The notes beneath the pieces were generated by a model. The model was not told the origin of the DNA. It saw only the letters and a program-made list of their open reading frames with translations, and did no database searches. From Flavihumibacter rivuli (GTDB taxonomy: Bacteria; Bacteroidota; Bacteroidia; Chitinophagales; Chitinophagaceae), in assembly GCF_018595685.2 (NCBI RefSeq), contig NZ_CP092334.1:2570001-2634000 (forward strand): a stretch of DNA of 64,000 nucleotides, in the 5' to 3' direction. This document shows positions 41,537-50,891 of this stretch, in pieces. Every line of letters starts with the position of its first letter. Within the stretch, counting starts at the first letter, position 1. The position numbers and the translations under genes are program-made.

Positions 41537-42214
41537 TTACTCCATCCACAAAAGGAAATAAATAATCCGGTACTTCTTTAACTCGGATTGGCTTTGGGAT
41601 CCCTGAAATAGGGGAGAAAATCCTTCGTTTAGCAATGCGTCATTCTCAGTAGCAAAGGAATTGGTAATATGTTCCAAGCGCAGTTTAAGAGCTGATGGAA
41701 TAGAATCATAAATACCATCTACTAGCATTGAATATTTCATCATTTCAGCATTGGGAGTCTTTGGATTCAATTGCAAATGGATATCATTAAGCAGCATGGC
41801 ATAGACATCTGGATAAAACTTAAAGGTTTGAAAGGAAAGCAGCGAGGATACATAAGCCTTCGGCTGTACATATTTCTGATTTTTATCCATATCAACCAGA
41901 CAGGTCGAAATTTTGCGATCCAATACCGAGTCATAGATTACCCTAAGCGACCGTAAAGCATTCTGGAGTTCAGCGGTAAGAATCAGGTCCTTCCTGATGG
42001 TGCGATACTTTGGCAGCAATTCTGTCTTTAAACCAGTGATATAGTTTACTTTGATATTTATATCAGTGCTCCAGACAGAATCCGTTATGCACTTTTTATA
42101 TTCTTCTATTGTAAGCTTTGCGCTGTCACAAGAGTTTGGCTGGAAACTTTGCCCGTAAGCTTCAGTATAAAATAAACCGAAAAGAAACGGAATACTAATC
42201 AACGAAGATCTCAT
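41537..42214 (-). CDS. Exported protein of unknown function
   Basis: 225 aa from the ATG at 42214; a longer start at 42241 adds nine residues and a poorer signal. Signal peptide to about residue 22 (LISIPFLFGLFYTEAYGQ). The mature part is mostly helical with no recognised motif (CDSAKLTIEEYKKCITDS, then LLNDIHLQLNPKTPNAEMMK). AT-rich. No partner can be named from its neighbours, which are the DUF2625 gene and a broken membrane-protein gene. Confidence 0.7.
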   Translation of the reverse strand: MRSSLISIPFLFGLFYTEAYGQSFQPNSCDSAKLTIEEYKKCITDSVWSTDINIKVNYITGLKTELLPKYRTIRKDLILTAELQNALRSLRVIYDSVLDRKISTCLVDMDKNQKYVQPKAYVSSLLSFQTFKFYPDVYAMLLNDIHLQLNPKTPNAEMMKYSMLVDGIYDSIPSALKLRLEHITNSFATENDALLNEGFSPLFQGSQSQSELKKYRIIYFLLWME

Positions 42215-42516
42215 AAGGTTGTAGGTATTACTTAAATACAAAAACTACTCAGAACTAATCCAAAATAGAGTAAATGATACTATGGTAGAAGGATATCTCA
42301 TCCTAATAGCAGCCAAAATCCATTTACTTCCCGTTCGATAGGCTACTATTTGATTACCAGCCTATATCAGGTTTATTATAATTATTGTCGTTGAAATTGA
42401 GAACCAATACTGCCTGTTGAACCTCTTGCTGGAAATGCTTCGTCTAGATGCAAACTGCCAAAGATCTAATTACCAATTTACACTGACACCAAACCACTGT
42501 CACCTTCTTTTATGTG
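42215..42516. other. Gene-free AT-rich gap
   Basis: 302 bp with no supported gene, terminator or strong repeat. GTTGAAATTGAGAACCAATAC near 42390 resembles the centre of the ~170-bp elements further right at 16 of 21 positions, but no inverted arms accompany it. Confidence 0.5.
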
Positions 42517-43078
42517 TCACAGGAAAGGAAGGTCAAAATAATAGCATTTAGGGTTATTAGGATCTATGTACAAGTCAATTCCTTTCCGTTTATCAATGTA
42601 CATTTTTACAGCTTCCGGATTCTGTGACGTTGCCTGGCTAACGAATTTGTAGGTCTTACCTCCGTATTGCCTAAATAGAACAATGTAAGTCTGCTGAATT
42701 TCATCCGATTTGTAATTACGATTACTTTCATAGAGAGCATCAAGCATTTCAATACGGGAAGGAAGATCATCGCTTATGACTTCCTCTTGGAAGCTTCTAC
42801 TCTTTACTTCGGAATTGTCCAATGTAACTTTAATCCTGTCACCTGTACGTTTAAGTCGTTCAATCTCTGCCAATCGGTCACTGCTGCTGTCGTTCCGATG
42901 AATACTAAGCCCTTGAAGTTTGGTTTTAGCAAAGAAATACCCCCCCTACAATCAGGATGAAAATACTCAATACAAACCAAAGTTCTTTACCCGGAATAGC
43001 CGTCCCTTTGTAGTTCAAGAAGAAAAAGAAGCCCAGAAGGCCAACACTTATTAAACTATATCCTAAAAGCTTGTTCAT
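42517..43078 (-). pseudogene. Two-helix membrane protein broken by a homopolymer frameshift
   Basis: The ATG at 43078 starts MNKLLGYSLISVGLLGFFFF, a first membrane helix, then ELWFVLSIFILIVGG, a second. In this frame the gene stops 30 bp... after the G7 run (C7 on the plus strand, 42940-42946), at 42926-42928. Removing one G joins the frame to GYFFAKTKLQGLSIHRNDSS and on to the 118-residue open segment that ends at 42517, giving 186 residues. The C-terminal part (YKFVSQATSQNPEAVKMYID, then KGIDLYIDPNNPKCYYFDL) is a DUF3592-like layout. It is either a sequencing slip, a true loss, or a slippery tract. Confidence 0.75.
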
Positions 43079-43353
43079 TGAAATGGAATATACCAGTTTA
43101 CTTATTGGTGACGGTAATTCATTTTAAAAGATCAACCCATCAACTGCACAAATGTCCAATGGAATTACAAATTTCAAATACTTAATGTCTGCCCAATAAT
43201 TGTCAATATGATGTTGGTGCCAGATTTCTGTTTGCCCTGTTCTTGTAACGTACTATCACTTGCTTAACTTCCGGTAAGGAACATAGCATTTCTAAAAAGC
43301 TCGGTTTTTAACTCCTATACGCAACTTTTATACATGACTTTTGCAGTATGTCA

Positions 43354-43953
43354 CTAATTTCTATTGATATCAAGAATTTCTCCTTTACTAAACATTTCCT
43401 TTAATTCAATCTTTGAAAATCCATATACATCGCTCGAATACTCTTTCAATCGCACATCTTTCAAGCCTTTTAATCTGTTTACTTCATAGGTACTTGCTTG
43501 AATAAACACAGAATCACCCTTCACCTGGTCCACTCTATAAAGGGTGTAATTATTATTCCTTGTCTTAACTTCAAAAATGTCACCAACCTGGGGTGACAAA
43601 ATAAGCTTGGCATTCCTTTCGTCTTTCTTTTTGTCACTTACAACACTGGTCATAATTAGAACTGCCACTACAGCCAAACCAGAAAACATCCAAATTGGTG
43701 CCTTGGTTTGAGCTTTTAAATTGTCATAAGAAGCCTTCAAAGATGCTGGCATTTCTTTTACCTTCAAAACTTGCTTACAATGGTCGCATTGGCTGAGTCC
43801 TATCTTACCCATTGGGAAAAATGGTATCCAAAAAATGTGGGCATATTTCTGAAATACGTGCATGTCAATGCAGTTCTGAGTCCCACAATTTTGGCATTTG
43901 TCAGTTAATACCTCCTTTGCAAGTTCTGTGCTTCTAGTTCCGTAAATAATCAT
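43354..43953 (-). CDS. Zinc-ribbon membrane protein, unknown function
   Basis: 199 aa. Residues 15-70 carry two CxxC pairs (CQNCGTQNCIDMHVF and QCDHCKQVLKV), a zinc-ribbon_15-like start with the common FFPMGK motif between them (WIPFFPMGKIGLSQCDHC). A membrane helix at about 90-108 (FSGLAVVAVLIMTSVVS) is followed by a soluble domain (VGDIFEVKTRNNNYTLYRVD). Topology suggests a cytoplasmic ribbon and a periplasmic tail. Function unknown. Same strand as its island neighbours. Confidence 0.8.
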   Translation of the reverse strand: MIIYGTRSTELAKEVLTDKCQNCGTQNCIDMHVFQKYAHIFWIPFFPMGKIGLSQCDHCKQVLKVKEMPASLKASYDNLKAQTKAPIWMFSGLAVVAVLIMTSVVSDKKKDERNAKLILSPQVGDIFEVKTRNNNYTLYRVDQVKGDSVFIQASTYEVNRLKGLKDVRLKEYSSDVYGFSKIELKEMFSKGEILDINRN

Positions 43954-44136
43954 ATTGTCTTATTTTTTGGTGAAGGATTTAGATTGCGAAATGGCATACT
44001 AGGTTCCGAGTCATTAATGCAATAGAGTAAATAGTCTACCACTAACATAAATGATAATATCAGCGACCTATTAATTCAAATGATTGGATTAATCACTTGA
44101 AGCCACAATCGTACAAAACCAGTATTATCGGCTCAT

Positions 44137-44655
44137 TTAACTAAATTTGGATAGTTCAATCCGTTTTTCAAATGCTTTTATTTCATTGATCTGTTCATCC
44201 GTCAACTGTTTTAAAGTCAGTGTTGACGTAATGTGATTGTATTGCAAGCCTATAAGTTGAATTTGAACTTCCTTCCTTCTTTGATCCCAGTAAATAAACT
44301 TTACCGGGGTTAAACTTTCAACAGCAGATCCTAACTTATGGATCCAATTTTTACCCGAGATAACAACTGGTTTAAGGTAAGTCACCATAAGTAAATTTTG
44401 TTTCCGGATTACAAGGATAAAGTCTTCAAAAATGAATATCTCAGCCGTGTTGGTAATTGAGGGATAATGTTTGTTCCCGTTAGAAACCAAATACTCTATC
44501 CGAACATCTCTGAAGTAAAGAAACAATTTGTTCCCTGCGGATGTAGCTTTGTCTACTACATTCATTATGTTCTTTTTGTTAGTTCCTGTCACCCGAAGGA
44601 TCAAAATATACAACACAACAAAGAAGCATGAAGAAGCTATTAAAAATATTGCCAT
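44137..44655 (-). CDS. Single-helix membrane protein of unknown function
   Basis: 172 aa. An N-terminal membrane helix (FLIASSCFFVVLYILILRV) is followed by a PH-like beta-rich soluble part (IFIFEDFILVIRKQNLLMVT, FIYWDQRRKEVQIQLIGLQ) and a helical end. Not recognised. An AACGTGA-type element end lies 30 bp upstream of its start at about 44685-44693. Confidence 0.72.
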   Translation of the reverse strand: MAIFLIASSCFFVVLYILILRVTGTNKKNIMNVVDKATSAGNKLFLYFRDVRIEYLVSNGNKHYPSITNTAEIFIFEDFILVIRKQNLLMVTYLKPVVISGKNWIHKLGSAVESLTPVKFIYWDQRRKEVQIQLIGLQYNHITSTLTLKQLTDEQINEIKAFEKRIELSKFS

Positions 44656-44684
44656 AGAGCTTGTTGGCTGTATTTAGCAAAAAA

Positions 44685-44877
44685 GCTAACGTGAAAAAGG
44701 CTAGCTGCTTTGGCGGCACCAATTGAAAGTCCATCACCAAATCGTTGCCCGGATTTATTTTACTGTTGAAGATAAGAACTGATACATAGCGTGGTTTGTC
44801 ACGCCTAAACTGCTACCGAATAGCAAGCTCTTGATAAATTGTTTTGGGTCACCCTACCAAAGCAGCAATCCCTGTTA
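44685..44877. repeat. Inverted-repeat element B between orphan genes
   Basis: Inner arms 44704-44713 (GCTGCTTTGG) and 44857-44866 (CCAAAGCAGC) are perfect, and the homology of the arms extends to 44699 and 44871 with mismatches. TTGAAGATA sits 67 bp in from 44699; in element A the same word is 66 bp in. CTAACGTGA flanks the left end and GTTAAT the right, overlapping the TAA of the next gene. Confidence 0.7.
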
Positions 44878-45471
44878 ATATCTCCAACTATTAATTATCC
44901 CAAATTCCTTCCAAGTATTGTCACTTTGCAATTGATAAAGAATAATTCCACCGCCCCCACCAAGGTAGCTATGTCCATTATCCCATTGAATTATTGCAAA
45001 TGTTTTTGAATTATCAAACACTGGTCTTGAAAAGTAATACAAGTCTCTGTCATTAGTTTCTGTTGAATTGAATTTGTTAATTAGTTTAGCATAATACTTT
45101 ATTTGCTTATTGTCTGCCAACTCAAGTTTCTTTAAAGCATACTTCTTTGAAACGCTTTCGCTTCTCTCATTGACAAGCAAAACATCCGGCAATTCTTTAT
45201 CAGTCCAAAGGGTGATATCCGCAAATTTGGAATTATGGATAATTTGCGAAAACATAACTGTGTCAAGAATTTGATTTGATCGTTCTTTTATATTTTCGAA
45301 ATACCACCACATCTCTTTTAGTTCAAGACTATTGATTTTTATCGGTTTTGAATGAACAAATAAACAACCGTGTCCGTTTAAAGCAGTATCAAGGAGGTTT
45401 TGATATTGCTTTATTTGTCCAAAAGAAGTTGAATAGAATAAAAATAGTAAAGCAATAAGTGAAAGTCTCAT
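44875..45471 (-). CDS. Exported protein of unknown function
   Basis: 198 aa. Signal peptide (LSLIALLFLFYSTSFGQ). The mature protein has no match I recognise; visible patterns are ELKEMWWYFENIKERSNQIL and, near the end, IIQWDNGHSYLGGGGGIILY, a glycine run. The stop codon lies in the right end of element B, and element A lies directly upstream of its start. Very AT-rich. Confidence 0.72.
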   Translation of the reverse strand: MRLSLIALLFLFYSTSFGQIKQYQNLLDTALNGHGCLFVHSKPIKINSLELKEMWWYFENIKERSNQILDTVMFSQIIHNSKFADITLWTDKELPDVLLVNERSESVSKKYALKKLELADNKQIKYYAKLINKFNSTETNDRDLYYFSRPVFDNSKTFAIIQWDNGHSYLGGGGGIILYQLQSDNTWKEFGIINSWRY

Positions 45472-45535
45472 ACACTATTTTAACAGAGATGCAAATTTGT
45501 CCAACTTTGCATTTTAGGGAGTGTCAAGTTTATAT

Positions 45536-45744
45536 GCCCCCCCAACGTTGACGTATTTGCGATGGCATGGCATTAAAAACCCGTCTGCCGGATCAAATGT
45601 TAAATTGAAAAACTGAAATTGAAGATAGTAACTAATGACCAACAGTGTAATGTATGCCGAAATTAATGCTGAAAAATGATTGACAACCGAAAGTTCCAAT
45701 GTCTAGCCATGCTATTGCAAATGCACTTGCTAGCGGCGGTTATT
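45536..45744. repeat. Inverted-repeat element A between orphan genes
   Basis: Arms 45553-45571 and 45706-45724 match as inverted copies at 16 of 19 positions, and all three differences are of the kind that still allow G-U pairing. TTGAAGATA is 66 bp in from the left arm start. CAACGTTGA precedes the left arm; TAGCGGCGGTTAT follows the right arm and overlaps the end of the neighbouring gene. Confidence 0.72.
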
Positions 45745-46269
45745 TTGTTTCATGAAGTCAGCCAAAAACTTCAAGCCGTCGTCATAAAGTGAAAAGTTTG
45801 TTTTGTCAATATATCTGTTCGCTTTTTTTTCTTTTTGTGTTATCGTCCAAATAATTTTGCTTTCGGCATATATTTCTTCCTTGTGATAAATACTTTTCAT
45901 GTTTTCTCTTCCGTCTTGCAATTCTACTGTCGCAAAAATTAGTTTGTTGTTTCTGAAATAGTAGGTCTTGTATATGTTAATGTCAAGGTTGTCATGATAT
46001 TCTATTCTTAAAGCTGTGTCGCCTTTTATGTTTGACAGTGTATAAACTCCAAAGCCGCCAACTACGATATCGTCTCTCTTGATTATGCCGTCTGCTATAG
46101 AAGTCATAAAGCCGAAGTTTTGCGGATGTGGAAGTTTGTCAAGAGAGTCAAGCTGCTTTGCATAAAACTTTGTTTCTAATACAATTGATGTGTCAACCTG
46201 CGCAAACAAAAAATTGTGAGAACAGATTGTCAAAATTGTCGCTGATATGACGTTTAGGAAGTGTCGCAT
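45730..46269 (-). CDS. Exported protein in a cassette-like setting, unknown function
   Basis: 179 aa from the ATG at 46269, which begins a signal peptide (NVISATILTICSHNFLFAQ); a longer start at 46344 would run through the flanking repeat. The mature protein is not recognised (KQLDSLDKLPHPQNFGFMTS, VVGGFGVYTLSNIKGDTALR, YHKEEIYAESKIIWTITQ). The ORF is bracketed by 13-bp inverted repeats, 45731-45743 inside its last codons and 46271-46283 one base before its ATG (12 of 13 match). This tight fit suggests that the gene moved as a unit. Confidence 0.72.
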   Translation of the reverse strand: MRHFLNVISATILTICSHNFLFAQVDTSIVLETKFYAKQLDSLDKLPHPQNFGFMTSIADGIIKRDDIVVGGFGVYTLSNIKGDTALRIEYHDNLDINIYKTYYFRNNKLIFATVELQDGRENMKSIYHKEEIYAESKIIWTITQKEKKANRYIDKTNFSLYDDGLKFLADFMKQNNRR

Positions 46270-46270
46270 T

Positions 46271-46283
46271 ATAATCGCCGCTA
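46271..46283. repeat. Outer inverted repeat of the cassette-like gene
   Basis: ATAATCGCCGCTA, the inverted partner of TAGCGGCGGTTAT at 45731-45743 (12 of 13). ACGCGTTAAT follows directly. The rest of the 46270-46751 gap has no gene; its right part is REP cluster 5. Confidence 0.75.
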
Positions 46284-46552
46284 ACGCGTTAATAATTGAT
46301 ATCATCAATACTCTAAAAAAATTTTCGAACCTCCTGGTATTCAATAGAACTGGTATATCCTATCCAAATATTACCTTATTTGTTCCCATTTCTACTAAAT
46401 GCTATGTGCCCGGTTCTACCCATAGCTTCGCCTCCTCAGTCACATGGACCAAGTGGCAGAATTTGGTCAACAATATATAAAGGGATTGATGGGTTTGCAA
46501 GTGGGGTGGGGAAATAGAAAGGTAGGGTAAATGGTAGTGTTCATCGGGTACT

Positions 46553-46722
46553 CAATTTTGGCATACGATGAATTTTACTCTTACTATTCATCAGGGTCTC
46601 CTGCGGGAGACCCTGATGGGGTTCGGAAGACATTGTTCATCGGGCATTCTATCAGAAGCATCCGATGAGTTTCATTCCTGCTATTCATCAGGGTCCCCTT
46701 CGGGAGACCCTGCTGGGGGGGG
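46553..46722. repeat. REP-like hairpin cluster
   Basis: Two family-1 hairpins in the same orientation: 46592-46615 with a TGC-type loop (GGGTCTCC / GGGAGACCC) and 46689-46712 with a TTCG loop. They are separated by a diverged CATCGGGCATTCTATC segment. They mark the right edge of the AT-rich gene run. Confidence 0.85.
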
Positions 46723-48941: not shown

Positions 48942-49024
48942 CCACGAAGGCGCGAAGGTACTAAGGCTTCACTAAGGTTCTAACGCCTTCGTGCCACTTC
49001 GTTTCTTTTAGCCTTTGAGGCAAA
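48942..49024. repeat. Family-2 intergenic palindrome
   Basis: GGCCACGAAGGCGCGAAGG at one end and CGCCTTCGTGCC, then AGCCTTTGAGGC at the other, with ACTAAGG units between. It lies between two same-strand genes and could fold as a long imperfect hairpin. Confidence 0.7.
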
Positions 49025-49028
49025 AAAC

Positions 49029-49862
49029 CTATTCTTCCATCAACTTGATCCCCGTTTGGGTCAATTCGATCTTGCGTTCCTTATACAATTTTCCCACGGT
49101 CATTTTGAAGGTCTTCTTGCTCATGCCGAAGAAGTCATAGATCTCCTCCGGATCGGATTTATCATGGTAAGGCAGGTAGCCATCATTCTCGCGCAGCAGG
49201 CGCAGGATCTTCTCCGATTCGCCTTCCACGCGCTGGTAGCCCTTCTCGCCCAGGGCCACATCGATCTTGTTCTCCTCGCGGATGGCCTTGATGAATCCCT
49301 TCACCTTATCCCCCACCGAGAGGTTGCGGTAAATATCATTGAAGTGCAGCACACCCGTATGGCGGTTGTTGATGATCACCACATAACCGATATCGGTCCG
49401 GCGGTACACCAGCAGGTCCACCGCATCATGCTCTTTCACCGTGAGCTCATCATTGCTTAGGAAGGGCTCGATCTTTTCCGTAGCCGCCACCCTGCCGGTC
49501 TGTTCATCGATATAGATCTTCACGATATAGTTCGCACCCTCGCGCATGCCCATCAGCTGCTTCGACTTGGGCACGAAGATATCCTTCATCAATCCCCAGT
49601 CGAGGAAGGCACCTTGTTTGGTAACGGTCACGGCACGCAGGGAAACGATATCCCCCACTACACCTTTCGGTTGTTGGGTAGTGGCGATCAGCCGGTCCTC
49701 GGAATCATGGTACACGAATACCCTCAACTCATCGCCCACCTTCGCATCCTGCGGGACAAAACGTTTGGGCAGCAGGATGCCTTCGCCACCGTCATCGAGG
49801 TAGAGACCGAAAGCGACTGCGCGCATCACCTTGAGCGTATTGTATTCGCCAACTTTTACCAT
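49029..49862 (-). CDS. CvfB-like S1-domain RNA-binding protein
   Basis: 277 aa. Three S1-like units: GEYNTLKVMRAVAFGLYLDD near the N-terminus, VVGDIVSLRAVTVTKQGAFL DWG around residue 75, and VSVGDKVKGFIKAIREENKI-type text near residue 195. A C-terminal winged helix ends the protein (IYDFFGMSKKTFKMTVGKLY). This matches the CvfB/YitL group, which acts in RNA-linked regulation in Firmicutes. Cytoplasmic. Divergent from purU with a 93-bp gap. Confidence 0.9.
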   Translation of the reverse strand: MVKVGEYNTLKVMRAVAFGLYLDDGGEGILLPKRFVPQDAKVGDELRVFVYHDSEDRLIATTQQPKGVVGDIVSLRAVTVTKQGAFLDWGLMKDIFVPKSKQLMGMREGANYIVKIYIDEQTGRVAATEKIEPFLSNDELTVKEHDAVDLLVYRRTDIGYVVIINNRHTGVLHFNDIYRNLSVGDKVKGFIKAIREENKIDVALGEKGYQRVEGESEKILRLLRENDGYLPYHDKSDPEEIYDFFGMSKKTFKMTVGKLYKERKIELTQTGIKLMEE

Positions 49863-49955: not shown

Positions 49956-50795
49956 ATGGAAAAGCATCATGTGATCAGGATCAAATGCCGCGACAGGAAA
50001 GGGTTGATCGCTGGCATTACGGGCGTACTCTACCAGCACGACCATAACATTATGGTGATGAAGGAATATGTGGAAGACGAGACCGGCACCTTCTTCGCGC
50101 GACTGGAAATAGCCGGGGAACTGAATGAGACCAGGCTGCAGCAGGGCTTGCAGGCCGTGTTGCCGGAGGATTCCATCATCAGCATCATCCCGAGGCGGAA
50201 GAAGAATATTGTGATCCTGGTGACCAAAGAGCACCATTGCCTGAGCGACCTGCTGGTAAGGCATCATTTCAACGAACTGCATGCGAATATCCAGGCGGTG
50301 ATCGGAAACTACGACCTGCTGGGAGATTTCTGTTCGAAGTTCGCCATCCCCTTCCACCATATTTCGCATGAGGGTAGCAGTAAGGAAGCCTTTGAGCAGG
50401 CGATTCTGGAACAGCTGCAGGCTTACCAACCCGATTACCTGGTGCTGGCCAAGTTCATGCGGATCCTATCACCGGAATTTGTGCAGGCCTATAATGAGCG
50501 GATCATCAATATCCATCACTCCTTCCTTCCAGCTTTTATTGGGGCGAACCCGTATAAGAAAGCGTTTGAACGCGGGGTGAAGCTGATCGGGGCCACGGCG
50601 CATATCGTGAACAACGACCTGGATGAGGGGCCGATCATCACCCAGCAGATCATCCCTGTGAAGCATGATGATGGGTTGAGGGATATGGTGGAAGCGGGAC
50701 ATGAAGTGGAAAAAGCGGTATTGGCGGAAGCACTGAAAATGGTCTTGGAGGACCGGGTGTTTGTGTCGGGGAATAAGACGATAGTATTTGCGTAA
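49956..50795 (+). CDS. purU: Formyltetrahydrofolate deformylase
   Basis: 279 aa. N-terminal ACT domain (HVIRIKCRDRKGLIAGITGV, residues 4-75) and a formyl-transferase-like hydrolase domain: LSDLLVRHHFNELHANIQAV, YLVLAKFMRILSPEFV, the active-site NIHHSFLPAFIGANPYKKAF and GATAHIVNNDLDEGPIITQQ. It releases formate from 10-formyl-THF and balances one-carbon and purine pools. Length and motifs are standard. TATATTTA at 49944-49951 just before the ATG may be its -7 box. Confidence 0.95.
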   Translation: MEKHHVIRIKCRDRKGLIAGITGVLYQHDHNIMVMKEYVEDETGTFFARLEIAGELNETRLQQGLQAVLPEDSIISIIPRRKKNIVILVTKEHHCLSDLLVRHHFNELHANIQAVIGNYDLLGDFCSKFAIPFHHISHEGSSKEAFEQAILEQLQAYQPDYLVLAKFMRILSPEFVQAYNERIINIHHSFLPAFIGANPYKKAFERGVKLIGATAHIVNNDLDEGPIITQQIIPVKHDDGLRDMVEAGHEVEKAVLAEALKMVLEDRVFVSGNKTIVFA

Positions 50796-50803
50796 GGTTT
50801 TTT

Positions 50804-50891
50804 GCCACGAAGGCTCGAAGGCACGAAGAGGCACGAAGGCGTTAATAATTATCGTCTTAGTGTGTACTTAGTGCCTTCGAGCCTTTGTGGC
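50804..50891. repeat. Long family-2 palindrome after purU
   Basis: Arms 50804-50824 and 50871-50891 are inverted copies at 20 of 21 positions with a 46-bp centre that has further CACGAAG units. Six T precede it. It starts 9 bp after the purU stop and may act as its terminator. Confidence 0.8.

Follow-up and report, generated by a model that had tools for sequence, protein, structure and literature searches.

Two attC-like elements of Flavihumibacter rivuli and a probable integron-type system of Bacteroidota

In an integron cassette, the bases after the 5' G^TT pair with the bases before the AAC at the cassette's own 3' end, and they do so because the complete site exists only in the excised circle; RYYYAAC is the partner half of the classical attC core. 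The core itself is given as GTTRRRY in the consulted part of PMC8876359, and the consulted part of PMC2727003 describes extrahelical bases and bottom-strand recombination for attC, as well as a self-pairing that in most cassettes can be extended past R' and R'' to 9-11 nt. IntegronFinder calls IntI by the overlap of PF00589 with a profile of the IntI-specific domain, an additional domain that lies around patch III (both from an extract of PMC9668308), and clusters of attC sites without an integrase go by the term CALIN (PMC9024848, in extract). Bacteroidota are listed among the phyla with integrons in the part of PMC8618304 used here; the extract of PMC9024848 reports integrons as rare in this phylum and names one complete Bacteroidetes integron found with IntegronFinder 2.0, that of Salinibacter ruber M1, and the 11 taxon models of attC given in the extract of PMC8352920 do not include Bacteroidota. 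The literature that we searched on the subject holds no description of the system presented below, which does not in itself prove its absence from print. We argue here, from sequence comparison, that two inverted-repeat elements of Flavihumibacter rivuli very probably serve as the attC analogues in a Bacteroidota system of integron type.

Both elements lie on the minus strand of the window, the whole 64,000-nt stretch analysed, which is part of a 4.30-Mb single-contig genome. Element A (45531-45745), an attC-like site with its G^TT at 45546 and AGC at 45731, consists of an R''-like CGCCGCTAGCA, two-part inverted arms, a conserved centre and an R'-like AACGTTG, whilst element B (44675-44890), a degenerate attC-like site, has its G^TT at 44690 and AAC at 44876; the spans from G^TT to AGC or AAC are 185 nt in A and 186 nt in B. 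The arms are as the original prediction had described them, with 16 of 19 complementary positions in A (at 45553-45571 and from 45706) and a 10 of 10 core in B, set within a 20-nt, 80% inverted repeat (44694-44713/44857-44876). The word that had been singled out as common to both, TTGAAGATA (at 45619 in A and 44766 in B), occupies homologous positions in the family model, and the CAACGTTGA/CTAACGTGA noted beyond the left arm corresponds to the R'-like end, as the elements are read on the minus strand. When the 64-kb window was searched with a covariance model of the family, A, itself one of the 73 sequences in the model, scored 155.4 bits (E 1.5e-34), and B, which is absent from the model, scored 32.4 bits (E 1.8e-6). 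Because a model built without B still finds B at this E-value, chance resemblance between the two is excluded, and they belong, as proposed, to one structural family. The difference between their arm sequences, also remarked upon at the outset, is real; it is nothing unusual, since arms co-vary throughout the family and differing arm sequences are therefore normal for it. B is far more worn than A, and a possible third element, a remnant with the central part only (42344-42434, minus strand; 15.4 bits, E 0.013, model positions 84-176), is insecure.

Cassette 1 carries an orphan gene for a protein of 179 aa (45730-46269, minus strand, from the sequence and a homologue look-up), the TAG stop of which falls within the R''-like box of element A; a Pfam domain is precomputed for none of the 35 proteins homologous to its product (query 45730-46272). 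The R'' of this cassette is complementary at 7 of 8 positions to the cassette's own start, 553 nt upstream, and at 4 of 8 to the other end of element A. Cassette 2, likewise with an orphan gene (198 aa; 44875-45471, minus strand, from the ORF and the boundaries), has ends without complementarity (1/8), for which reason we regard it as worn or rearranged, in agreement with the decay of B. Directly after B lies a further ORF (44137-44655, minus strand), possibly a third cassette gene, with no covariance-model match directly 3' of it, its own site being undetectable. At the start of cassette 1 we place an attI-like junction (46260-46311, minus strand; G of G^TT at 46285, ...CAATTATTAACGC^GTTAGCGGCG), which ranks second among the 1994 GTT sites of the window on the attI matrix introduced below (13.6, the training range being 10.9-30.3); from this rank, the array probably sits on a weak or worn attI-like site. 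The window carries a worn mini-array, and its two cassettes were probably captured at an attI-like sequence apart from the main arrays and have decayed since. Elsewhere in the window, 50-nt inverted repeats (48981-49030 and 50795-50844), 86% complementary and 1.76 kb apart, come with CACGAAGGC words.

BLAST of element A against 59 genomes, its own included, returned seven more matches below E 1e-17, including one from its own genome, and iterated nhmmer over the gathered stretches returned 96 rows at E<=1e-3, overlapping loci being counted twice. The copies follow one another head to tail, in most places with a single gene between them. Seventy-three of them were aligned, after removal of matches weaker than 1e-15, copies truncated at a contig end and copies from loci that overlap, and the consensus has 21 pairs in stems of 4, 9, 2 and 6, with a two-sided compensatory change in at least one sequence at 13 of the 21. 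The result is an imperfect palindrome with the R''-L''...L'-R' order and the unpaired spacer by which integron sites are recognised. Sites measure about 120 or about 185 nt, with a conserved centre and an AACA...CGTT frame, and the shorter subtype of about 120 nt follows the same plan. In the own genome, where 150 of 637 candidates were scored, the covariance model gives at least 67 matches (E<=0.1). Those listed form six clusters: the largest holds 30 (634-666 kb), followed by clusters of 18 (3379-3405 kb), 13 (3546-3562 kb) and 3 (2884-2888 kb), with a single match at 2418 kb and the 2 of the window. With 39 candidates per genome scored, matches at E<=1e-5 occur in at least 36 of the 59 genomes, the own one included; further copies in Bacteroidota genomes stand in arrays, one gene per unit.

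Some of these arrays also hold, adjoining sites, a tyrosine recombinase and a second ORF (loci L029:7590-9683, L052:8837-10930 and L021:4020-6141). The second ORF in L029 is an IS91-family transposase, and genome G011 has five copies, with equal scores, of that array-internal tyrosine recombinase; the pair may target these sites. Other ORFs within arrays resemble IS110-family transposases (L021:816-1871, L024:4598-5668 and L056:11556-12620), as assigned by Pfam for L024 and by their start for L021 and L056. They are reminiscent of the IS1111 relatives that insert in attC.

In relatives, a tyrosine recombinase and an attI-like site precede the arrays. With respect to this integrase, 148 elements lie downstream on its strand, none upstream on that strand and one on the other strand, and of 44 named loci for which 1.5 kb or more of downstream sequence was available, 10 showed no element. 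R248, K273, H340, R343, H366 and Y375 are invariant in 11 integrases and presumably fill the conserved R, K, HxxR, H/W and Y roles of tyrosine recombinases; PF00589 is present in all six array-type proteins scanned. Could these, then, be canonical attC sites of a canonical IntI integron, listed as such by current tools? The overall plan is alike, the integron-integrase profile TIGR02249 matches six array-type recombinases at 171-191 bits, and IntI4 (2a3v) is among the nearest solved structures, the best PDB sequence matches being 4a8e and 5hxy. Yet these scores are below the cut-off of 265, and between the two aligned halves the array integrase has 20 residues against 60 in IntI4, with no IntI-specific region. 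The KDR-to-HxxRHS spacing is 61-65 in 41 of 42 array integrases (the remaining value, 12, is probably a misreading), and among 16 IntI measured it is 103 in 11 and 76 in 5. In a tree, 18 IntI form one clade holding no array integrase, and array integrases and IntI stand together on one side and XerC/XerD on the other (support 100/100). Array integrases carry, moreover, an extra N-terminal domain. The sites speak against a canonical integron as well, as GTTRRRY occurs in only 20 of 281 and RYYYAAC in 20 of 281, both together in 2; GTTRnnnGY is present in 231 of 281, and the family core is CGTTRnnnGY. This agrees with the original prediction, which had found neither the length nor the core words classical, and we consider a canonical integron very unlikely. 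What emerges is an integron-like working in which two defining features of the canonical family, the IntI-specific domain and GTTRRRY, nevertheless fail.

As first noted, no integrase is present in the window, and in its genome a search that included the array regions found no array integrase; two XerC/XerD-like proteins are present, whereas relatives have an array integrase upstream of their arrays. Across the 59 genomes (own included), elements occur in 20 of 26 with the integrase (E<=1e-45) and also in 16 of 33 without it, so that the two are only loosely associated. As a relocated cassette of 100% identity was found in this genome, in which the search found no array integrase, either the loss is recent or the enzyme acts from a place unseen. 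A canonical integron integrase, above the TIGR02249 cut-off, occurs in a genome of the same order (L037, G052:C40).

For attI, the partner of the first element's R'' was sought between the integrase stop and the element. A match of at least 6/7 is found in 42 of 48 pairs of integrase and first element, one of which, L021, has an IS91-type recombinase; of the 44 testable pairs, the other four being without a located AACA, 42 have the expected R', and 200 partner shuffles among loci gave 3.7 on average and never more than 10 of 44. The 36 attI-like sites within 700 bp have the consensus taAttgCGTAaATttA.GtGTT, with A at -8 in all and C at -13 in 97%. On the array stretches of the own genome, a matrix trained on 36 loci, none from this genome, gives five scores of at least 20, four of them (20.2-25.3) just upstream of element runs and the fifth (21.4, L075:3466) at the end of an array, not its start. 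The exact attI pattern occurs three times in the genome, each time at one of the four run-start sites. With one mismatch allowed it is no commoner there than a reversed control (5 vs 9), and the evidence for attI therefore lies in positions and not in the count.

Three attI-like sites of this genome (L075:17270-17657, L076:9218-9611 and L077:13988-14380) have about 390-530 bp upstream in common at 80-86% identity. This stretch, in which no convincing integrase match was found, appears from its alignment to be a duplicated platform. A palindromic repeat in the window (46589-46715; CATCAGGGTCTCC...GGAGACCCTGATG, two copies) has a closely similar word in the L075 platform.

An ORF of at least 60 aa is present in 230 of 239 units and lies on the array strand in 212 of these 230; the median coding share is 92% and the median length 197 aa. 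A scan of 109 selected cassette proteins gave 31 Pfam families at E<=1e-5, and among the 25 families listed two have two members and the others one each. Eleven homologous cassette pairs provided 15 neighbour comparisons, with different neighbours in all 15; homologous genes in a fixed order, which would have told against the original prediction, were not encountered. Blocks of 702, 792 and 842 bp recur in different arrays of the own genome at 99.4, 98.1 and 100% identity. At the left edge of all three, identity begins at CGTT, or a base earlier at ACGTT for the 842-bp block, and the sequences beyond differ; at the right edge, the 702- and 842-bp blocks end at the next CGTT and the 792-bp block diverges a few bases earlier. 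Such repeats are the very trace expected of cassette relocation. A fourth block, of 1,442 bp and 100% identical in two own-genome arrays (L074:10889-12330 and L077:18210-19651), was rejected as a relocated cassette on account of its insertion-sequence-like ends (TGTCTTA...TAAGACA). Homologous recombination or Xer/dif-type exchange between repeats might likewise shuffle genes, with the integrase incidental, given that the elements are mutually related and that the genome encodes two XerC/XerD-like proteins. However, the left flanks of the three relocated cassettes differ right up to CGTT and not inside a shared repeat, and an attI-like sequence stands at the integrase-proximal start; exchange of this kind is, to our mind, extremely improbable.

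The nature of the mobile unit is best seen in the complementarity of its ends, compared over 8 bases per side, with elements without a locatable AACA or CGTT not counted. The mean is 6.44/8 in a first set that combines relatives with the window and two stretches of its genome (of 103 units, 95 reach 6 or more), 6.28/8 in the own-genome arrays (33 of 40) and 6.46/8 in named GTDB loci (89 of 96), from which five duplicates recognised by contig had been removed. Shuffled partners gave 3.28, 3.23 and 3.30 for the three sets (SD 0.13-0.19; maximum of 2000 shuffles 3.76-4.00), and the two ends of one element 3.29 (116), 3.34 (47) and 3.49 (118), near the shuffled level. As ends match across the unit and not across the element, the mobile unit is gene plus element, from G^TT to G^TT as in integrons, and these boundaries suggest cleavage at or next to G^TT. 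Own-cassette complementarity, the array structure and the presence of cassettes in more than one array lend support to the attC-like reading first put forward for A and B. Inverted arms, many copies and the IS91- and IS110-family elements beside some of them would also suit MITE- or REP-like repeats, mobile but non-autonomous, that an IS transposase spreads and that lie between genes by accident. A repeat that moves alone, though, leaves unexplained why the far ends of gene plus element are complementary, the relocated blocks include the gene besides the element, and the elements are oriented behind one recombinase, all of which makes such repeats scarcely conceivable as an explanation.

Folding of each strand gave a bias for the arms. 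Joined with an equal linker and folded with DNA parameters, they are more stable as the bottom strand in 233 of 281 sites, less stable in 42 and equal in 6, with a mean gain of 1.48 kcal/mol (unequal linkers gave 234); whole elements show little strand preference, the bottom strand being favoured in 162 of 281. An A invariant in 73 of 73 copies faces C in 65 of the 73, and in the bottom strand this becomes a G-T pair; no conserved single extrahelical base was identified in the elements. The arm-strand bias and the A/C position would fit, without proving it, a recombination of the bottom strand. RNA elements kept for expression, such as terminators or 3' UTR structures, can be dismissed as next to impossible: they would account for the position 3' of genes, the folding ability and the compensatory changes, but Rfam has no match at E<=1 in window positions 42000-46500 and none at gathering score in L065, L074 and L031, the ends pair across the whole cassette, and the arms are stabler on the strand complementary to the transcript.

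The system extends beyond the bacterial family of the host. An integrase relative at E<=1e-70 is present in 83 of 296 Bacteroidota genomes, and we examined 20 of these loci, 19 outside the family and one, G205, inside. In 11 of the 20, a descriptor of structure alone, which gives 0 or 1 matches in shuffles, places elements downstream of the integrase and on its strand (in 12 when L169, in which the integrase reading contains stops, is positioned by its integrase-search match); five have none, and in L164, L168 and L178 the site plan is kept with the elements divergent from the integrase, as in classical integrons. Over 25 units of the 19 loci outside the family, complementarity averages 6.16/7, with 22 of 25 at 6 or more, against 2.68 for shuffled partners (SD 0.30, maximum 3.84); when the two ends of a single element are compared, the value is 2.95. 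As both the site plan and the complementarity are found outside the family, the system is probably older than the family.

How might such a system work? The bottom strand of the site would fold into a hairpin, its paired ends forming the core site, and the putative recombinase would cut at or beside G^TT, excising the cassette as a circle that brings R' and R'' of one cassette together; the circle could then be inserted at attI or another site, as IntI does. As the enzyme is without the IntI-specific region, we propose, speculatively, that the folded strand may instead be recognised by its extra N-terminal domain. Going further, one can imagine a phylum-wide integron class of Bacteroidota, the integrase of which reads a folded single-stranded site via a HARP/XPB-type N-terminal domain, cassette capture having been reinvented or predating IntI; this wider proposal is tentative, and we stop somewhat short of calling it probable. 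Such a class could have gone unrecognised because it lacks both the IntI-specific domain and the GTTRRRY core, the markers normally relied upon. Should these arrays prove to be integrons built differently, the phylum would harbour a large stock of mobile orphan genes that has so far gone uncounted. The IntI-specific domain would then be dispensable for integron-type recombination, making a central mechanistic assumption directly testable, and a new recombinase would be at hand for comparison with IntI.

Set beside described systems, the arrays are closest to integrons (IntI, attI and attC, as in the chromosomal integrons of Vibrio), with which they have in common an integrase, attI and single-gene cassettes placed head to tail; in both, the sites are palindromic and end in AAC/GTT, unit edges fall at or next to G^TT, R' and R'' of a cassette are complementary, and the arms favour the bottom strand. 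They differ in the enzyme, which is without the IntI-specific region and has an extra N-terminal domain, in a core of CGTTRnnnGY instead of GTTRRRY, in the length of the sites (about 120 or 185 nt) and their conserved centre, and in an integrase that is usually upstream of the cassettes on the same strand, though divergent in L061, L164, L168 and L178. The own-genome arrays, in which no array integrase was detected, are reminiscent of CALIN, although some of their runs begin at attI-like sites and the core is non-classical. With XerC, XerD and XerA the array integrases have the catalytic fold in common, differing by the extra N-terminal domain and their position in the tree; and whereas dif is a XerC/XerD site of about 28 bp, the conserved site here, in contrast to Xer/dif modules, spans 120-190 nt and has covarying arms.
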